Made by a program: the position numbers and the translations under genes. From Candidatus Zipacnadia bacterium (GTDB taxonomy: Bacteria > Armatimonadota > Zipacnadia > Zipacnadales > UBA5352): a stretch of 45,114 nucleotides of DNA. The notes beneath the pieces are model-generated. The model made no database searches, had not been told where the DNA came from, and was given only the letters and a program-made list of their open reading frames with translations. The stretch spans positions 1 to 45,114 of the forward strand of contig JALGVA010000040.1 of assembly GCA_029820295.1 (NCBI GenBank), read 5' to 3'. This document shows, one piece after another, positions 3,666-12,222 of this stretch. The first letter of the stretch is position 1. The number at the start of each line of letters is the position of its first letter.

Positions 3666-6086
3666 CTCGTCAACCATGATCCAGACGCGTTTGTAGATGC
3701 CGCCCTTGCCCGCCGAATCGCGCACCGCGACCGCCAGGTAGTTGGTCTCGCCGAAGCGCACGTGATCGGTCATGTCGATGGTGAAGGGCTGCTTCCAGCC
3801 CTCAGGCCCGTCCATGGGGTGATCGGCGACAAGCTGCCCGTTCAGCCAGATCTTCGCGTCCTCGTCCACCGAACCGAAGAAGAGAACGAGGTCGCTGCCC
3901 TGGTACTGCGGGTCGATCTCGAAGGTCGTCCGGTACCAGCCGAGGCCGTCGTAGTCGCGACCGTCATGCTCGGCCTCCCACGCGCGCCCGAGGGGCTGGT
4001 TCTCCCAGAAGGTGTCGGTGCGCATGGTCGTCCAGCCCTCGGCCGAGCCGCGCAGGTTGAACCACGCCTCGGCCTCCCCCACCTCGTCCGGGTCGAAGCG
4101 AAAGTGCCATTGCAGCGGGAGCAGCCCGACCGCCTCGCGATCGCCGATGTCCCGCACGAGCTTGTAGCCGGCGAAGTCGCCGTACTTGGTGTCGCGCCAC
4201 ATCGCCCAGTAGGGGTTGATGACGTTCTCGCGGCCAATCGTCACGCGGTAGGCGTGCATGCGCCGGATGGTCTCGATGCTCGCGGCCAGGTCGCCCTCGC
4301 CCGAGTTGATGGCCTCGGTGGCGGCGATGGCCTCGGCGGTCATGCGTGCATGGCGCAGGGCCTGCAGGAGCTGGTCCACGCGCCGCTGCACGATCTCGGG
4401 CTCACCGGCCACCTCGCGCCGGGCGCGCATGAGCAGGTCCAGAGCGGGCGCGAAGGCCTCCTCGTCGTAGATGTAGGGGATGATGCGCTCGGACCCGCGG
4501 CCCATGTTCTGGTAGCCCAGCTCGTACTGCAGGTCGGCCCACTTCGGGCTCTCCTCCGTCACGTAGCGGTTCCAGTACTCGAAGTACTCGCGCACGGTAT
4601 CGCCCGCGGCGCCAAAGGCGGGCAGATACTCGTCGAGGAGCTGCTCGGTCGAGGCGTCGGTATCCCAGTGCAGGCGGGCGAGCAGGTAGTAGACCGGGCC
4701 CTGCGCGAGCCACTGCCCCGAAAGCGTGTCGTAGTCGGTGCCGATCATGCCGTTGTCGGCGGCGAAGCGGAAGTCGTCGGCCATACGGTAGAGCGGCGCC
4801 CGGGGCATGGCGTGCAGGCCACCCAGCCAGTTCGGGCGCAGGAAGAGCACGCTCGCCTGATCGTGCCAGGCCAGCCAGTCGTCCTGAAACTGCGCGCTGC
4901 TCGCGCCCGAGTTCGGGTAGCCCACGCCGGGCACGAAGCCCACGATGATGTTCGGCTCCAGCCGGGTCTCCCGCGGCGGGAAGCGGTAGCGCGAGTAGGC
5001 GTAGACCGCGACGTAGGCGTCCGGATCTACCTCCGCCACGCGCCGCGCGATCTCGTTCCAGAACTTCGCATAGCGGTCAGACAGGATCACCCGCGGCCCC
5101 TCGGGCGTCTGCTCCACGTAGTCGGGCACGTCCCACGCGGCGCAGCGCTCGCACAGGCAGAAACCGCCGCCGTCGTTCTCGCAGGCGTTGAGCGTGCGGT
5201 TGGCCACCGGATCCTGCTCCCAGCGCTCCCGCCAGCGCGCCACGATCTCGTCCCACAGCGCCGGCTCGGAGACGCACATCTTCACGCGGTCAGGCGGCCC
5301 GACGGGCGCGCGCTCGCCGTCCTCATTGAGTGCGAAGAACTCGGGATGCTCCGCGCCGTACTCCTCCCACCAGCGCGTGAAGGCGTGCCCGTAGTTGATG
5401 AACAGGCTGCGGCCCATGCGCATGCGCCGCATCCACAGGTTCTCGTCCGCCGCCAGCTCCGAGGCCATCTCCCGGTCGAGTGGCCCGCTGAAGGCCTCGA
5501 TGGCGTCGAGCATCGAGCCACGGATCCCGGTGCGCAGATGGCGCTGCTTGATCTGCGGGACCTCGTAGATGTCGATCTCCCCCACGCTGATTGTCGGCGC
5601 CTCCGGGATGACCGTGCCGGTCTCGCCCGGCCACAGCCAGCGCACGCCGAGCCGGTCCTGCAGGAAATCGTAGACCGCGTAGAGCGTGCCGGCCTGATTG
5701 TTGTAGCTCATCGCGTCGTCGCGCCCGCCCGGGCCGATGGCGTCGCCGCCGAGCAGGAACAGGTCGCTGCCGACGGTCAGCAGCCGGATGGCCTCGGGCT
5801 CCAGCGCTCCGATGTCGATGCCCGCCGCCTCAGCGGCCCGCGTCGGGCCGACGTAGATGCGGCACTCAACGTCGATCGGCCGCTCACTCTCGGGCCGGAT
5901 GGCGATCTCCGCGCCGCTCATCGCCTGCAGGAAGTGCTGCAGCTCCTGTGCCGCGAAGGTGTGCAGGTTCAACGGCTCGTCGGGCAGCAGGATCACGCAG
6001 CGCGCCTGGCCGTCCACGGTCAGGTCGAGCGCCGCGGAGGGCAGTACGCAGATGAGTGCGAGCGCAAGGGCGACGGAGCAGCGCAT
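3663..6086 (-). CDS. Secreted DUF4838 protein with C-terminal jelly-roll domain
   Basis: An 807-residue exported protein, signal peptide at residues 1-19 (MRCSVALALALICVLPSAA). Residues about 20-150 resemble the alpha-glucuronidase-type N-terminal domain (AAQELQHFLQAMSG). The central DUF4838 part follows, with RWLWPGETGTV and the Cys-rich ENDGGGFCLCERCAAW motif near residues 300-320. Residues about 670-807 form a galactose-binding-like jelly roll (GWYRTTFEI, KIWLNGQLV), as in beta-galactosidase-type glycosidases. It probably acts on plant or microbial glycans outside the cytoplasm. The start at 6086 is set by GAGGAGG 8 nt upstream and by the signal peptide. The frame stays open further upstream only by chance. 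A UROD gene fragment is divergently transcribed from the same intergenic region. Confidence 0.85.
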   Translation of the reverse strand: MRCSVALALALICVLPSAALDLTVDGQARCVILLPDEPLNLHTFAAQELQHFLQAMSGAEIAIRPESERPIDVECRIYVGPTRAAEAAGIDIGALEPEAIRLLTVGSDLFLLGGDAIGPGGRDDAMSYNNQAGTLYAVYDFLQDRLGVRWLWPGETGTVIPEAPTISVGEIDIYEVPQIKQRHLRTGIRGSMLDAIEAFSGPLDREMASELAADENLWMRRMRMGRSLFINYGHAFTRWWEEYGAEHPEFFALNEDGERAPVGPPDRVKMCVSEPALWDEIVARWRERWEQDPVANRTLNACENDGGGFCLCERCAAWDVPDYVEQTPEGPRVILSDRYAKFWNEIARRVAEVDPDAYVAVYAYSRYRFPPRETRLEPNIIVGFVPGVGYPNSGASSAQFQDDWLAWHDQASVLFLRPNWLGGLHAMPRAPLYRMADDFRFAADNGMIGTDYDTLSGQWLAQGPVYYLLARLHWDTDASTEQLLDEYLPAFGAAGDTVREYFEYWNRYVTEESPKWADLQYELGYQNMGRGSERIIPYIYDEEAFAPALDLLMRARREVAGEPEIVQRRVDQLLQALRHARMTAEAIAATEAINSGEGDLAASIETIRRMHAYRVTIGRENVINPYWAMWRDTKYGDFAGYKLVRDIGDREAVGLLPLQWHFRFDPDEVGEAEAWFNLRGSAEGWTTMRTDTFWENQPLGRAWEAEHDGRDYDGLGWYRTTFEIDPQYQGSDLVLFFGSVDEDAKIWLNGQLVADHPMDGPEGWKQPFTIDMTDHVRFGETNYLAVAVRDSAGKGGIYKRVWIMVDE

Positions 6087-6161
6087 GGCGGATGCCTCCT
6101 CGAAGCCGCTGAGCATCGCGCGGCTGTTCGTCGCGCGAGCCCCCGCGCCCTTCCGGGAGGC

Positions 6162-6167
6162 ATCATA
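6162..6167 (-). promoter_or_regulatory. Possible -10 element for the DUF4838 gene
   Basis: On the minus strand TATGAT lies about 75 bp before the start at 6086, the same hexamer as in the promoter at 1361-1366. No good -35 is seen at 16-18 bp, so this is a weak call. Confidence 0.3.
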
Positions 6168-6218
6168 CACCTGGCGGCGAACTGATCTGCGTCCCGATCC
6201 GTCGCCGAGGTGACCGCC

Positions 6219-6639: not shown

Positions 6640-7146
6640 GTGAACTCAGGCAGCGAGCTGATCGTCGAGATGCTGCGCCGGTCGTACTTCGCGGTCGATG
6701 GCCTGTGGTACGTCATGGTCGAGGAGGAGTTCGGGCCGGACATGGCGATGGAGCTCGACGAGCGCGTCTGGCAGGTCATGCCCAAGATCCAGGCGCGCAA
6801 GGCCCGTGAGCTGATCGACTGCCAGGACGACTCGCCGGCGGCGCTGGTGCGCTGCATGGCGCTCAAGTTCGCGGCCGAGGGTCACGACTACGTCGTGCGC
6901 ATACCCGCGCCGGGCGAGGCCGAGATCGTCATCAGGCGCTGCCCGTGGCGCGAGGTGCTCGAGTCCTCGGGGCGCACGCACCTGGGCCCGGAGATCGCCG
7001 ACCGCATCTGCGCCACTGAGGGCGCGACCTGGGCCGCCGAGTTCGGCGACGGCATCGACTTCGCCATGACCGAGGCCATCTGCCACGGGGCGGACCGCTG
7101 CCGCTTCGTCTTCCGTCGTGCGCATGGCTGCGATTCCCCGGAGTGA
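6640..7146 (+). CDS. DUF6125 / L-2-amino-thiazoline-4-carboxylic acid hydrolase-like protein
   Basis: A 168-residue cytoplasmic protein. The pattern YFAVDGLWYVMVEEEFG (residues 14-30), then ELDERVWQVMPKIQARKARELI, and a C-terminal half ending CHGADRCRFVFRR matches the DUF6125-type branch of the L-2-amino-thiazoline-4-carboxylic acid hydrolase-like family. Family members often sit with UROD-like and radical SAM genes, as here. GTG at 6640 is chosen because GGAAGG lies 7 nt upstream and the frame before it overlaps the UROD fragment. Its TGA overlaps the ribosome binding site of the next gene, so the two are probably translated together. The biochemical role is not known from sequence. Confidence 0.65.
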   Translation: MNSGSELIVEMLRRSYFAVDGLWYVMVEEEFGPDMAMELDERVWQVMPKIQARKARELIDCQDDSPAALVRCMALKFAAEGHDYVVRIPAPGEAEIVIRRCPWREVLESSGRTHLGPEIADRICATEGATWAAEFGDGIDFAMTEAICHGADRCRFVFRRAHGCDSPE

Positions 7147-7150
7147 TGGC

Positions 7151-8353
7151 ATGCCCGACGAACCGCTGACGGTTCTGGTCAAGCCCGCCGGCCCGGACTG
7201 CAACCTGGCCTGCAGCTACTGCTTCTACCGCGACAAGAGCGCCCTGTGGCCCGACGCCCCGCGCCATCGCATGAGCGAGGAGACGCTGCGCGAGCTGGTG
7301 CGCAAGTACATGAACTACCACGACGGCACCGTCCCCTTCGCGTGGCAGGGCGGCGAGCCCACGCTGATGGGCCTGGACTTCTTCAAGCGCGCGGTCGAGT
7401 TCCAGCAGCTCTACGGGCGCCCCGGCCAGGCGGTCTCCAACAGCCTGCAGACCAACGCCATCCTGCTGGACGACCCGGCCTGGGCGCGCTTCCTGCGCGA
7501 GTACAGGTTCCTGGTGGGTGTGAGCATCGATGGCCCGGCTGAGGTGCACGACGTCTTCCGCGTCACGCACGCGGGTGAGGGCTCGCACGCGCGCGTGGTG
7601 GCGGCGCTGGAGACGCTGCTCGCGCACGAGGTTGAGGTCAACATCCTGACGATGGTCCAGCCCGAGAACATCCATCGCCCTGCCGAGACTTACGAGTATC
7701 TGTTGTCGCTGGGCGTGGACTTCCTGCAATTCATCCCGCTGGCCGAACCGCGCCCCGACGGATCCGGCCTGATGCCCTTCAGCATCGACCCGGCCGACTA
7801 CGGCCGCTTCCTGTGCGAGGTCTTCGACCTGTGGCAGGCGGAGCAGCCGCGGCCGGCCTACGTGCGCATGTTCGACGACGCACTGGCGGTGGTCATGGGC
7901 TTCGACCACCCGACCTGCATGTTCGGCCCCGCGTGCGGCCCGTACTTCGTGGTCGAGCACAACGGGGACATCTTCGCCTGCGACTTCTTCGTCGAGGAGC
8001 AGTGGCGCTACGGCAACATCCACGAGTTGGAGTTCCACCACATCCCGCGCCTGGAGCTTTACCAGCGCTTCCGCGCGCGCAAGACCGCCGGCCTGGACGA
8101 GTGCGCGCGCTGCGAGTGGTTCAGCATGTGCCACGGGGGTTGCCCGAAGTACCGCGTGATGCTCGGCGACGCGGCGCGACCGACCTACTTCTGCGAGGCC
8201 TATCGCATGTTCTTCGAGCACTCACACGACCGCCTGCGGGAGATGGCAAAGCGGCTCAACGCGCGGCGAGCCGCGGAGGAGCAGGGCATCGGTCGCAACG
8301 ACCCCTGCCCGTGCGGGAGCGGGCGCAAGTTCAAGGACTGCTGCATGGCCTGA
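7151..8353 (+). CDS. Anaerobic sulfatase-maturase-type radical SAM/SPASM protein with SEC-C tail
   Basis: A 400-residue cytoplasmic Fe-S enzyme. The radical SAM motif CNLACSYC has Cys 17, 21 and 24. WQGGEPTLMGLDFF, LQTNAILLD, VGVSIDGP and LQFIPL follow in the order seen in anaerobic sulfatase-maturing enzymes, which turn an active-site Cys or Ser of sulfatases into formylglycine. The C-terminal SPASM domain has the expected cysteines (CMFGPACGPYF, CARCEWFSMCHGGCPKY, FC). The last 22 residues are a SEC-C zinc motif (GRNDPCPCGSGRKFKDCC). ATG at 7151 is preferred over 7118 because GGAGTGA precedes it and the 7118 start lies inside the upstream gene. No sulfatase is present in the window, so its client is elsewhere or is a different peptide. 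Confidence 0.88.
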   Translation: MPDEPLTVLVKPAGPDCNLACSYCFYRDKSALWPDAPRHRMSEETLRELVRKYMNYHDGTVPFAWQGGEPTLMGLDFFKRAVEFQQLYGRPGQAVSNSLQTNAILLDDPAWARFLREYRFLVGVSIDGPAEVHDVFRVTHAGEGSHARVVAALETLLAHEVEVNILTMVQPENIHRPAETYEYLLSLGVDFLQFIPLAEPRPDGSGLMPFSIDPADYGRFLCEVFDLWQAEQPRPAYVRMFDDALAVVMGFDHPTCMFGPACGPYFVVEHNGDIFACDFFVEEQWRYGNIHELEFHHIPRLELYQRFRARKTAGLDECARCEWFSMCHGGCPKYRVMLGDAARPTYFCEAYRMFFEHSHDRLREMAKRLNARRAAEEQGIGRNDPCPCGSGRKFKDCCMA

Positions 8354-10164: not shown

Positions 10165-10851
10165 TCAGTTACGCGAGAACGGCACGTCATCGCCGTCATC
10201 GACGAGGCCGAGGCTCTCCAGCTTCCTGCGGGCGGCGGCCAGCACGCGGTAGTGGGCGATCTCCTTGCCCAGCAGGGGCAGCGCCATCTGCAGCCGCCGT
10301 GCGAGCGACGTGGCCTCCAGCATCTCCTGCTGCACCTGGAAGCTGGTCTGCAGGTTGGCGGCGATGGCGTAGGAGAGGTCCACCGGATCGTCGGGCACCT
10401 CGGGCTCGACGCTGTGCGCGCCCATCATGGTCATCACCAGGCGCATCAGCTCCTTGAGTTGCTCACGCGCCCTGACGATAACCGCCTCCTCGGCCGGGGA
10501 GACGGCGTCGCTGTCCTCGAGGATCACCACGTCCGCGCGCAACACCGGCATGGCGCGCTGCACGGTGTCGATGCGGAAGCGGGGGCCGCCCTGCACCAGC
10601 ACCATGCTGCTGCCGTCGGGCAGCTTCGTCACCTCGGCGACGCGCGCCACGGTGCCGACCTCATGGGGGATCGCCGGCCCGCCGACCTCGCGGCCGGCGC
10701 GCAGCAGCGCCACGCCGAAGAGCCCGTCGGTCTCCAGGCACTCGTCGAGCATCTCGCGGTAGCGCTGCTCGTGGATGTACACGGTCGCGGGCGCTCCGGG
10801 GAAGAGCACCGTGTTGAGCGGCATGATCGGGAAGTTCTCGCGGGTCGGCAT
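10165..10851 (-). CDS. LON substrate-binding domain protein
   Basis: A stand-alone LON N-terminal domain protein of about 228 residues, without the ATPase and protease parts of Lon. The N-terminus FPIMPLNTVLFPGAPATVYIHEQRY is diagnostic, followed by GLFGVALLR, EVGTVARV and GGPRFRI strands and a C-terminal helical bundle. Stand-alone LON proteins are common in bacteria and thought to bind unfolded substrates; their exact role is open. The start is uncertain: ATG at 10851 fits the domain boundary, while a GTG at 10887 would add 12 residues, and neither has a strong ribosome binding site. It is divergent from the RtcB-like gene across a roughly 135-170 bp gap holding two AGTACT palindromes (10890 and 10979). 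Confidence 0.85.
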   Translation of the reverse strand: MPTRENFPIMPLNTVLFPGAPATVYIHEQRYREMLDECLETDGLFGVALLRAGREVGGPAIPHEVGTVARVAEVTKLPDGSSMVLVQGGPRFRIDTVQRAMPVLRADVVILEDSDAVSPAEEAVIVRAREQLKELMRLVMTMMGAHSVEPEVPDDPVDLSYAIAANLQTSFQVQQEMLEATSLARRLQMALPLLGKEIAHYRVLAAARRKLESLGLVDDGDDVPFSRN

Positions 10852-11022
10852 CGGCGTCGGGCCCACCCCTTCCGCTCGCGCGTCCACTTAGTACTACGAC
10901 GCCCGCGCACGGACTCCTCCATCGGGTAGCGCACAACCTTCGCGCCGCCTGCAGAGGTCTTCGGCGAGCCCGCGCAGAAGTACTAGGCGCGATAGTTACA
11001 TCGCCGCGCGAGGAGTCACGCC

Positions 11023-12222
11023 ATGGCCGGAGCGGGCGCCGATCCCATGCTGCAGCGTGCCACTGAACACATCTTCTCGATGGGACTGGGCGACGTCGCC
11101 GCCGAGATGAGCGAGCGCAACATGACCTACGGCCTCGCCAAGATCCATCACGTGCTCGCCGAACTGGGCCACGCGCCCGACGCCACCTTCATCGCCACCC
11201 CCGACCTGACCATCACCCGCAACGAGGCGCGCTGGCAGGCCGGAGTCGGCTACGGTGGCAAGATCACGTGGGGCGGCGGCGAGCGGCCGGTGGTCTTCCT
11301 CGACGTGAAGCCCAACTGCTGCGGGATGCTGGTCGGCGGGCTCGCGGAGCTGCCGCCGCTGGCGGACGTCGCGCGCCGGCTCGACGCCATGCTCGAGGAC
11401 CACGCGCAGCTCGACGGCGTGGACATCGACTGGGACATCGGCACCGGCAACCACTTCGTGGACCTGATGGCGGTAGAGACGCTGGCGCCCGACGTGGACC
11501 TGCCGCGCTGGTGTTTCGTGATGCACTTCTCGGGCGAGGAGCTGCGCGGCGACAACGCGCTGGGGATGGGCCTGTACTGGGACTACAGCGCCGAGATCCG
11601 CCGACGCATGCGCGTCTTCGAGACGCCCTGGGGGCCCTGCCGCACGCTGCTTGACGATGACGCCTTCGAGTACTGGGAGTTCTTCCGCCGCGCCGAGCGG
11701 TTCACGCGCCGGCGCCGGCAGATGGCGGCCGAGCGCCTCTTCGATGACTTCACGGTCATCGCCAACCTGCACCACCAGGGGCTCGTGAGCGCGAACGCCA
11801 TGCTCCTGGGCTGCCAGGACACCTCGGGGGGCGGCCTGGCGCCGGTGATGCTGCGCGAGGCCACGCCGGGCTATCTCTTCCGGCCGCTGCCCAACCTCAC
11901 CGACCCGGTCATCGAGCTGCTGGGCTGGACCGAGCGCGCGCGCGAGCACGGGGTAATCGAGCAGCTCCGCGCGGCCAACGTCATCCCGCACGGCGCGGGC
12001 TACATGCTCCCCGGAGTGTCACACGTGGCCGCAGTGCATGAGTTCGACGGCCGGCGCTACTACGAGGTCGAGGCGACCGAGGGCGGCGTGCGCATCGTGC
12101 TGGGCACCCCGCGCGACCTCACCTACGCCTACCGCGGTCGGCGCGTGATCCTCGCCAGCGCCGAGTACCGCCTGGGCGAGATCGCCGCCCGCCTGCAGCC
12201 GCGCTCGGTGCTCAAGGCGTAG
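11023..12222 (+). CDS. Divergent RtcB-like protein
   Basis: A 399-residue soluble protein I would first have called unknown, but short motifs occur in the order of the RNA ligase RtcB: PNCCGML (98-102, where RtcB has DxGCGM), GTGNHFVD (141-147; RtcB GxGNHFxE), VMHFSGEE (166-172; RtcB HSGSRG), LHHQG (249-253; RtcB HHN) and PHGAG (322-326; RtcB SHGAGR, whose His carries the guanylate). The possible metal ligands C100, H144, H168 and H250/251, and the nucleotide-accepting H323, are all kept; the first Asp is Asn and the Glu after GNHF is Asp. The PGSMG motif is not recognisable. No archease gene is nearby. GGAG 8-11 nt upstream supports the ATG at 11023. It could ligate RNA or have drifted to another substrate. 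This call rests on motif order only. Confidence 0.55.
   Translation: MAGAGADPMLQRATEHIFSMGLGDVAAEMSERNMTYGLAKIHHVLAELGHAPDATFIATPDLTITRNEARWQAGVGYGGKITWGGGERPVVFLDVKPNCCGMLVGGLAELPPLADVARRLDAMLEDHAQLDGVDIDWDIGTGNHFVDLMAVETLAPDVDLPRWCFVMHFSGEELRGDNALGMGLYWDYSAEIRRRMRVFETPWGPCRTLLDDDAFEYWEFFRRAERFTRRRRQMAAERLFDDFTVIANLHHQGLVSANAMLLGCQDTSGGGLAPVMLREATPGYLFRPLPNLTDPVIELLGWTERAREHGVIEQLRAANVIPHGAGYMLPGVSHVAAVHEFDGRRYYEVEATEGGVRIVLGTPRDLTYAYRGRRVILASAEYRLGEIAARLQPRSVLKA

Follow-up and report, generated by a model that had tools for sequence, protein, structure and literature searches.

Can a protein that carries the metal-binding and nucleophilic histidines of the RNA ligase RtcB in their usual order, within an otherwise altered active site, be assigned to the RtcB ligases, or does it represent a different enzyme? 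To our knowledge, the fold of RtcB is regarded as unique and as tied to a single chemistry, the guanylylation and sealing of RNA 3' ends, and in Pfam RtcB makes up a single family. The question is raised by P0001, a protein of 399 amino acids encoded at positions 11023 to 12222 (+ strand, stop codon included) of the window, by which we mean the whole stretch of 45,114 nucleotides of contig JALGVA010000040.1 from a Candidatus Zipacnadia bacterium. The open reading frame lies exactly where the initial annotation had placed it. Together with structure prediction (AF2), Foldseek and profile alignment (hhalign), it defines P0001 as an RtcB-fold protein of a new family.

Gene, locus and host genome

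The ATG is preceded, at a distance of seven bases, by the likely ribosome-binding site GAGGAG (11010..11015, + strand), recognised from the sequence. The GC3 of the gene is 0.94, and third codon positions account for 181 of the 298 differences from the L002 gene, in a comparison with relatives at 72-76% identity. From this excess of third-position changes among close relatives, the protein is real and under purifying selection. The divergent neighbour (10165..10887, - strand), separated from the gene by 135 bases of intergenic DNA, encodes a protein with a LON substrate-binding domain (PF02190, E-value 2e-36). In this protein the domain occurs without a protease. In a synteny comparison, no other bacterial neighbour of the family gene recurred as often as such a divergent LON-domain gene (14 loci). 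The conserved gene downstream is on the opposite strand, and the P0001 gene stands alone at its locus. No partner in RNA repair was seen at the bacterial family loci, where the LON-domain gene is accompanied by downstream genes of unrelated kinds. Elsewhere in the window, the product of the reading frame at 7118-8353 (+ strand) has a cysteine motif resembling that of radical-SAM enzymes and ends in a SEC-C-like tail (NDPCPCGSGRKFKDCC); judged by eye, it looks like an enzyme of the sulfatase-maturase type.

The host genome (5.6 Mb, 98.6% complete) contains one copy of the family gene, one canonical RtcB gene on another contig and one Archease gene on a third. A true RtcB is also encoded in every family host genome that was checked.

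Fold and homology to RtcB

P0001 received no assignment in searches of Pfam, NCBIfam, PHROGs or PADLOC. The RtcB model PF01139 went unreported up to an E-value of 10, P0001 being below the curated cut-off of this family, and it was matched by 3 of 30 family members with a best E-value of 0.0012. The sole RtcB trace was a match of P0001 to NF007153 over the NHF motif, with an E-value of 0.17 and 10.8 bits as compared to a cut-off of 407. The initial annotation had suggested profile searches and structure prediction as checks on the relationship to RtcB; no library places P0001 in another family, and in Foldseek searches with two models the predicted fold is that of RtcB and nothing else.

The AlphaFold models were built without templates for P0001 (pLDDT 90, pTM 0.89) and for an archaeal member (pLDDT 93), two proteins that are 40% identical to each other. 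At an E-value of 0.001 or lower, Foldseek matched these models to 14 and 13 chains of the PDB, respectively, all of them RtcB with a probability of 1.00. The E-values for RtcB were about 1e-7 to 1e-8, as compared to about 0.1 for the next-best match. Among viral models there was a single significant match, an RtcB-type ligase annotated as 3'-phosphate/5'-hydroxy nucleic acid ligase. The TM-scores against RtcB are moderate (0.4-0.5) and the rmsd is large, which indicates that parts of the fold differ from RtcB.

Profile comparisons led to the same relative. An hmmsearch of the PDB with the family profile gave RtcB for all top matches (E-value 0.017), and hhalign aligned the family to a profile of 29 diverse RtcBs with a probability of 96%, an E-value of 3.6e-9 and a score of 75.7, whereas 30 column-shuffled RtcB profiles scored 18.2 +/- 3.3 (maximum 25.8) and the reversed profile scored 17.7. 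The claim that the RtcB motifs occur in order is thereby borne out as a resemblance beyond chance. A scan of several hundred genomes with the family profile gave eight weak matches from outside the family (L079, L083-L089), all of which were identified as true RtcBs by the RtcB profile. For the N-terminal third (residues 10-125) the profile alignment with RtcB was not above the shuffled background, so the equivalence of Asp61 and Cys100 to RtcB residues is drawn from order and fold only. Overall, we regard it as virtually certain that P0001 is homologous to RtcB and has the RtcB fold.

Distribution of the family

With a search profile built from ten members, carriers were found in 29 of the 291 genomes of the host phylum, all in one class (Zipacnadia, a group of the Armatimonadota as treated in PMC10290634). 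Further carriers are 2 of 400 genomes from the phylum of the Anaerolineaceae member (Chloroflexota) and 3 of 371 from the phylum of the Nanoarchaeota member, in addition to a Woesearchaeota member. The archaeal members are of the DPANN type and, like those from Chloroflexota, few in number. This occurrence in one class of Armatimonadota, in Chloroflexota and in DPANN-type archaea suggests spread between domains. Relatives at 61-78% identity in named records belong to candidate division WS1 or Candidatus Zipacnadia bacteria. Searches of phages, plasmids and viral contigs yielded no relative, and a mobile or phage origin was rejected on this ground. The openly accessible literature yielded no publication on the family, and within the libraries and open papers searched there is no described family that was found to hold it.

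Conserved residues of the nucleotide-binding half

Conservation was counted over 33 family members, and motifs were compared with those of 29 RtcBs, both canonical and short. The fold, NHF and HGAG, and three metal histidines in the same order, are common to the family and RtcB (PF01139; Pyrococcus PhRtcB, 1uc2/4dwq; human RTCB, 7p3b; E. coli RtcB). In P0001 the motifs follow the RtcB order as PNCCGM (97-102), GTGNHF (140-145), MHFSGEE (167-173), LHHQG (249-253) and HGAG (323-326), and Cys100, Asn143, His144, Phe145, His168, His323 and Tyr370 are invariant in all 33 members. The initial annotation had placed a histidine at each metal or guanylate position. This holds for His144, His168 and His323 (33/33) and for His251 (32/33, missing in L007 only), but not for residue 250, which is variable (T, N, V, F or L in other members).

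Residues 143-147 (NHFVD; 11449..11463, + strand) correspond to N202-H203-F204-x-E206 of PhRtcB, which serve triphosphate, metal B and guanine, with NHF present in 33/33 members and the register given by hhalign. His168 (11524..11526, + strand; 33/33) aligns with the metal-A ligand His234 of PhRtcB, and His251 of the HQ pair (11773..11775, + strand; hhalign) with the metal-A ligand His329. The segment HGAGY at 323-327 (11989..12003, + strand), with His323 and Tyr327 in 33/33 members, contains the predicted guanylylated nucleophile, His323, at the position of PhRtcB His404; the motif reads HG[AGS]G throughout the family. Cys100 (33/33) is by its place in the sequence the likely counterpart of PhRtcB Cys98 and would be a bridging metal ligand. 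Asp61 of a P-D-x-T motif (11203..11205, + strand) is the proposed counterpart of PhRtcB Asp65; the residue is Asp in 32 of the 32 members where it is present, and its register is by order only.

The remainder of the pocket, a Tyr and a C-terminal Lys that had escaped the initial annotation, is likewise kept. Tyr370-Arg371 (12130..12135, + strand; 33/33) is the counterpart of A-Y-K in RtcB and corresponds to PhRtcB Tyr451, which we take to be part of the guanine pocket, and Lys398 (12214..12216, + strand; 30/33, hhalign) corresponds to the C-terminal guanine contact Lys480. Counterparts of PhRtcB N202, F204, Tyr451 and Lys480 are thus found in 33/33, 33/33, 33/33 and 30/33 members. The spacings match as well: the distance from the nucleophilic His to the Tyr is 47 residues in P0001 and most members, as in canonical RtcB, and that from the Tyr to the Lys is 28 in P0001 as compared to 29 in RtcB. 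The position of the guanine-contacting E206 of PhRtcB is mostly Asp in the family, with D, N, S or T occurring. It is this residue that had been described as an E to D change in the metal site; the position is a guanine contact, and Asp occurs there in short RtcBs as well (NHYVD).

Two deviations were seen among the members. In the L007 protein (5001-6176) an in-frame gap of 10 residues, between IANL and VVLGCQ, deletes the HHQG metal-ligand segment while the rest of the protein is normal; the gap is either a natural loss or an assembly error. In the sub-branch of L038, L039 and L040 the C-terminal guanine-contact Lys is lost and Asn replaces the guanine Asp/Glu, and these proteins may use a different nucleotide.

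Replaced residues of the RNA and pyrophosphate half

In human RTCB, metal A is bound by H259, H353 and C122, and metal B by D119, C122 and H227, while N226, H428, E230, S409 and K504 contact GMP (PMC8668186). Ligation requires each of the five metal residues, the metal-B Asp among them; D119A, H227A and H259A retain weak guanylylation, so that mutation of the metal-B Asp abolishes ligation and leaves weak guanylylation, and in the guanylylated complex the leaving phosphate is bound by D119, N354 and K375 (PMC10944509). In the presence of Archease, PhRtcB D95A guanylylates the RNA 3'-phosphate without ligation (PMC3973293).

Several of these residues are missing in the family. The segment KPNCCGM at 96-102 of P0001 (11308..11328, + strand) is without the Asp of D-x-x-C; KPNxCGM is present in 33/33 family members and 0/29 RtcBs, and D-x-x-C-G in 0/33 and 27/29, respectively, the Asp there being the metal-B ligand (Asp95 of PhRtcB). 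The D to N substitution proposed initially is correct in that the metal-B Asp is absent, but the change is better described as one from D-x-x-C to an invariant K-P-N-x-C. H-x-G-S-R is found in 28/29 RtcBs and in no family member; where RtcB has GSRG the family has, after the His, the downstream invariant Glu173. The HN after the third metal histidine of RtcB is HQ in the family, and RKGA is found in 29/29 RtcBs as compared to 0/33 members. The loss of PGSMG had been noted correctly: GSMG or GDMG occurs in 27/29 RtcBs and 0/33 members, which have a conserved RxDLPxYL instead, represented in P0001 by REATPGYL (278-285; 11854..11877, + strand), aligned by hhalign with the PGSMG guanosine loop. 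Finally, the nucleophile motif is HGxGY in 33/33 members and HGxGR in 29/29 RtcBs. This replacement of Arg by Tyr behind HGAG, invariant in the family, and the losses of GSR, HN and RKGA, had been overlooked. Among the residues lost are those equivalent to human D119, N354 and K375. Taken as a whole, RtcB has D-x-x-C, H-x-G-S-R, HN, RKGA, GSMG and HGAGR, whereas the family has KPNxCGM, H followed by E, HQ, RxDLPxYL and HGxGY, and these diagnostic motifs separate the 33 members from the 29 RtcBs almost without overlap.

Phylogenetic position

A tree was computed from 62 proteins, namely the 33 family members and 29 RtcBs of both the canonical and the short type, E. coli RtcB among them. In it the family forms one clade with support of 100/100, opposite all 29 RtcBs. 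With this, and with the nearly non-overlapping motifs, the proposal of a new branch distinct from plain RtcB stands. The internal branch between family and RtcB has about 5 or more changes per column, and the placement is limited by long branches and the weak N-terminal alignment. Within these limits on rooting, the family may be either a sister group of RtcB or an offshoot that has diverged very fast. To judge from the aligned sequences, it is outside the sampled RtcB radiation. By profile cut-off, by D-x-x-C, RKGA and HGxGR, and by position in the tree, P0001 does not belong to the RtcB ligase family. In its nucleotide half it would work like an RtcB nucleotidyltransferase.

In length the family proteins fall about 80 residues short of canonical RtcB, from which they also differ in the N-terminal third. 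They are similar in length to the short RtcBs (the PRK09588/NF007153 group and other paralogues of about 390 amino acids), with which they share Asp at the guanine-Glu position. However, the phosphate-side motifs are retained by short RtcBs, which fall among the RtcBs in the tree; the family differs in both respects.

Archaeal gene neighbourhoods

In three archaeal genomes a gene for an HD phosphohydrolase directly precedes the RtcB-like gene (L117:7318-7977, L119:373-1023 and L008:1307-1957). In L117 and L119 the stop of the first gene and the start of the second share one base, and in L008 the two genes are separated by 12 bases. The L117 HD protein matches PF01966 (E-value 6.8e-13), and those of L117 and L119 have NCBIfam matches of the phosphohydrolase type. 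Upstream of the HD gene, a pyruvate kinase gene is present in L117 and, judged by similarity, in L008. HD enzymes can act on phosphate ends, and the pair of HD and RtcB-like proteins could therefore be an end-processing unit, which we offer as a lead only. At a fourth archaeal locus a short gene (L118:7295-8014) overlaps the end of the RtcB-like gene; its product has no Pfam match, gives weak matches to the candidate-defence models PDC-S70 and PDC-M69C and starts with PIN-like residues.

Proposed function

Since several RtcB residues that handle the RNA end are missing, the family probably catalyses a related but different reaction. The absence of the metal-B Asp and of RNA-side residues, with the nucleophile and guanine pocket kept, fits an enzyme that forms His-GMP and passes the GMP to a phosphate, and we infer a histidine-GMP step in the family. 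In the proposed mechanism Cys100, His168 and His251 would hold Mn2+ or a similar ion, and GTP would be bound between Asn143/Phe145, Tyr370 and Lys398. His323 would attack the alpha phosphate of GTP to give covalent His-GMP, and the GMP would then go to an acceptor that carries a phosphate, most probably the 3'-phosphate or 2',3'-cyclic-phosphate end of a nucleic acid. The RtcB residues for the second metal, pyrophosphate and RNA phosphate are replaced by K96/P97/N98, E173, Q252 and Y327, which makes it probable that the reaction would end with nucleotidyl transfer (capping), or use another acceptor, rather than with standard sealing of 3'-phosphate and 5'-hydroxyl ends. P0001 would act beside, not instead of, the canonical RtcB of the genome. 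To this full mechanism, in which a nucleotidyltransferase guanylylates its own histidine and acts on nucleic acid with phosphate ends, sealing being doubtful, we assign a probability of roughly 0.5. A precedent for a GMP-capped end as the possible main product of an RtcB relative is RtcB3 of Myxococcus xanthus, which, in work by Maughan and Shuman from 2015 (cited in PMC10630183), reportedly caps DNA and RNA ends and is a weak ligase; it is likened to P0001 by description and not by sequence. The family may indeed, as initially suggested, catalyse another repair or a different nucleotide reaction.

According to the main rival, P0001 would be a genuine GTP-dependent ligase of 3'-phosphate and 5'-hydroxyl RNA ends whose site has been remodelled, so that K96/N98 or D94 would replace the missing Asp and Y327, E173 and R371 would position the RNA for repair of a particular cleaved RNA. 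The RtcB fold and the conservation of the nucleophile, NHF, the metal histidines and the guanine Lys agree with this, D94 occurs in 29/33 members, and specialised second RtcBs are known, such as the PrfH-linked RtcB2 that repairs colicin E3-cut 16S rRNA (PMC9223846). However, D94 is not invariant, ligation by human RTCB depends on each of its five metal ligands (PMC10944509), and all sampled RtcBs keep RKGA and HGxGR, and nearly all D-x-x-C and GSR, none of which is found in the family; we consider a remodelled ligase unlikely. The guanylylating transferase we prefer has to accommodate that D119A and PhRtcB D95A are weak or Archease-dependent even for guanylylation, so that loss of the Asp could mean lower activity altogether.

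In the second rival the fold would have been reused for a metal-dependent phosphoesterase or transferase with a small-molecule substrate; no nucleotide would be bound covalently during the reaction, and metal binding would be the sole role of the histidines. This reading would agree with the lost RNA- and pyrophosphate-side residues, the very long branch, the single-gene setting without RNA-repair partners in bacteria and the gene order pyruvate kinase-HD-family gene in two archaea, but a metallohydrolase would not need the Asn, Phe, Tyr, C-terminal Lys and HG[AGS]G that are kept nearly throughout, and we consider it improbable. An RtcB relative devoid of catalytic activity, which binds or regulates instead, would be in line with the loss of D-x-x-C, RKGA and HGxGR and with L007, which is without the metal-A HHQG segment; it is very improbable, as His144, His168, His323, Cys100 and Asn143 are invariant in all 33 members, drawn from two domains of life, and L007 alone lacks His251, which argues for catalysis. 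Chance motif matches in an unrelated protein, an idea that the lack of a significant Pfam or NCBIfam match for P0001 might have encouraged, are practically negligible and already refuted by the fold searches with two models and by hhalign with its controls.

More broadly, and more tentatively, at somewhat less than even odds, the family may be a second family of RtcB-fold enzymes, separate from every RNA ligase with this fold, in which a His-guanylylate or other His-NMP modifies something other than the 3'-phosphate/5'-hydroxyl RNA break; its task would be either the capping of nucleic-acid ends or nucleotidyl transfer to small molecules. A family beyond the RtcB radiation, with the nucleotide half of the site kept and the phosphate half rebuilt, would separate the residues that serve guanylylation from those that serve RNA handling, and it could add a new nucleotidyl transfer reaction.
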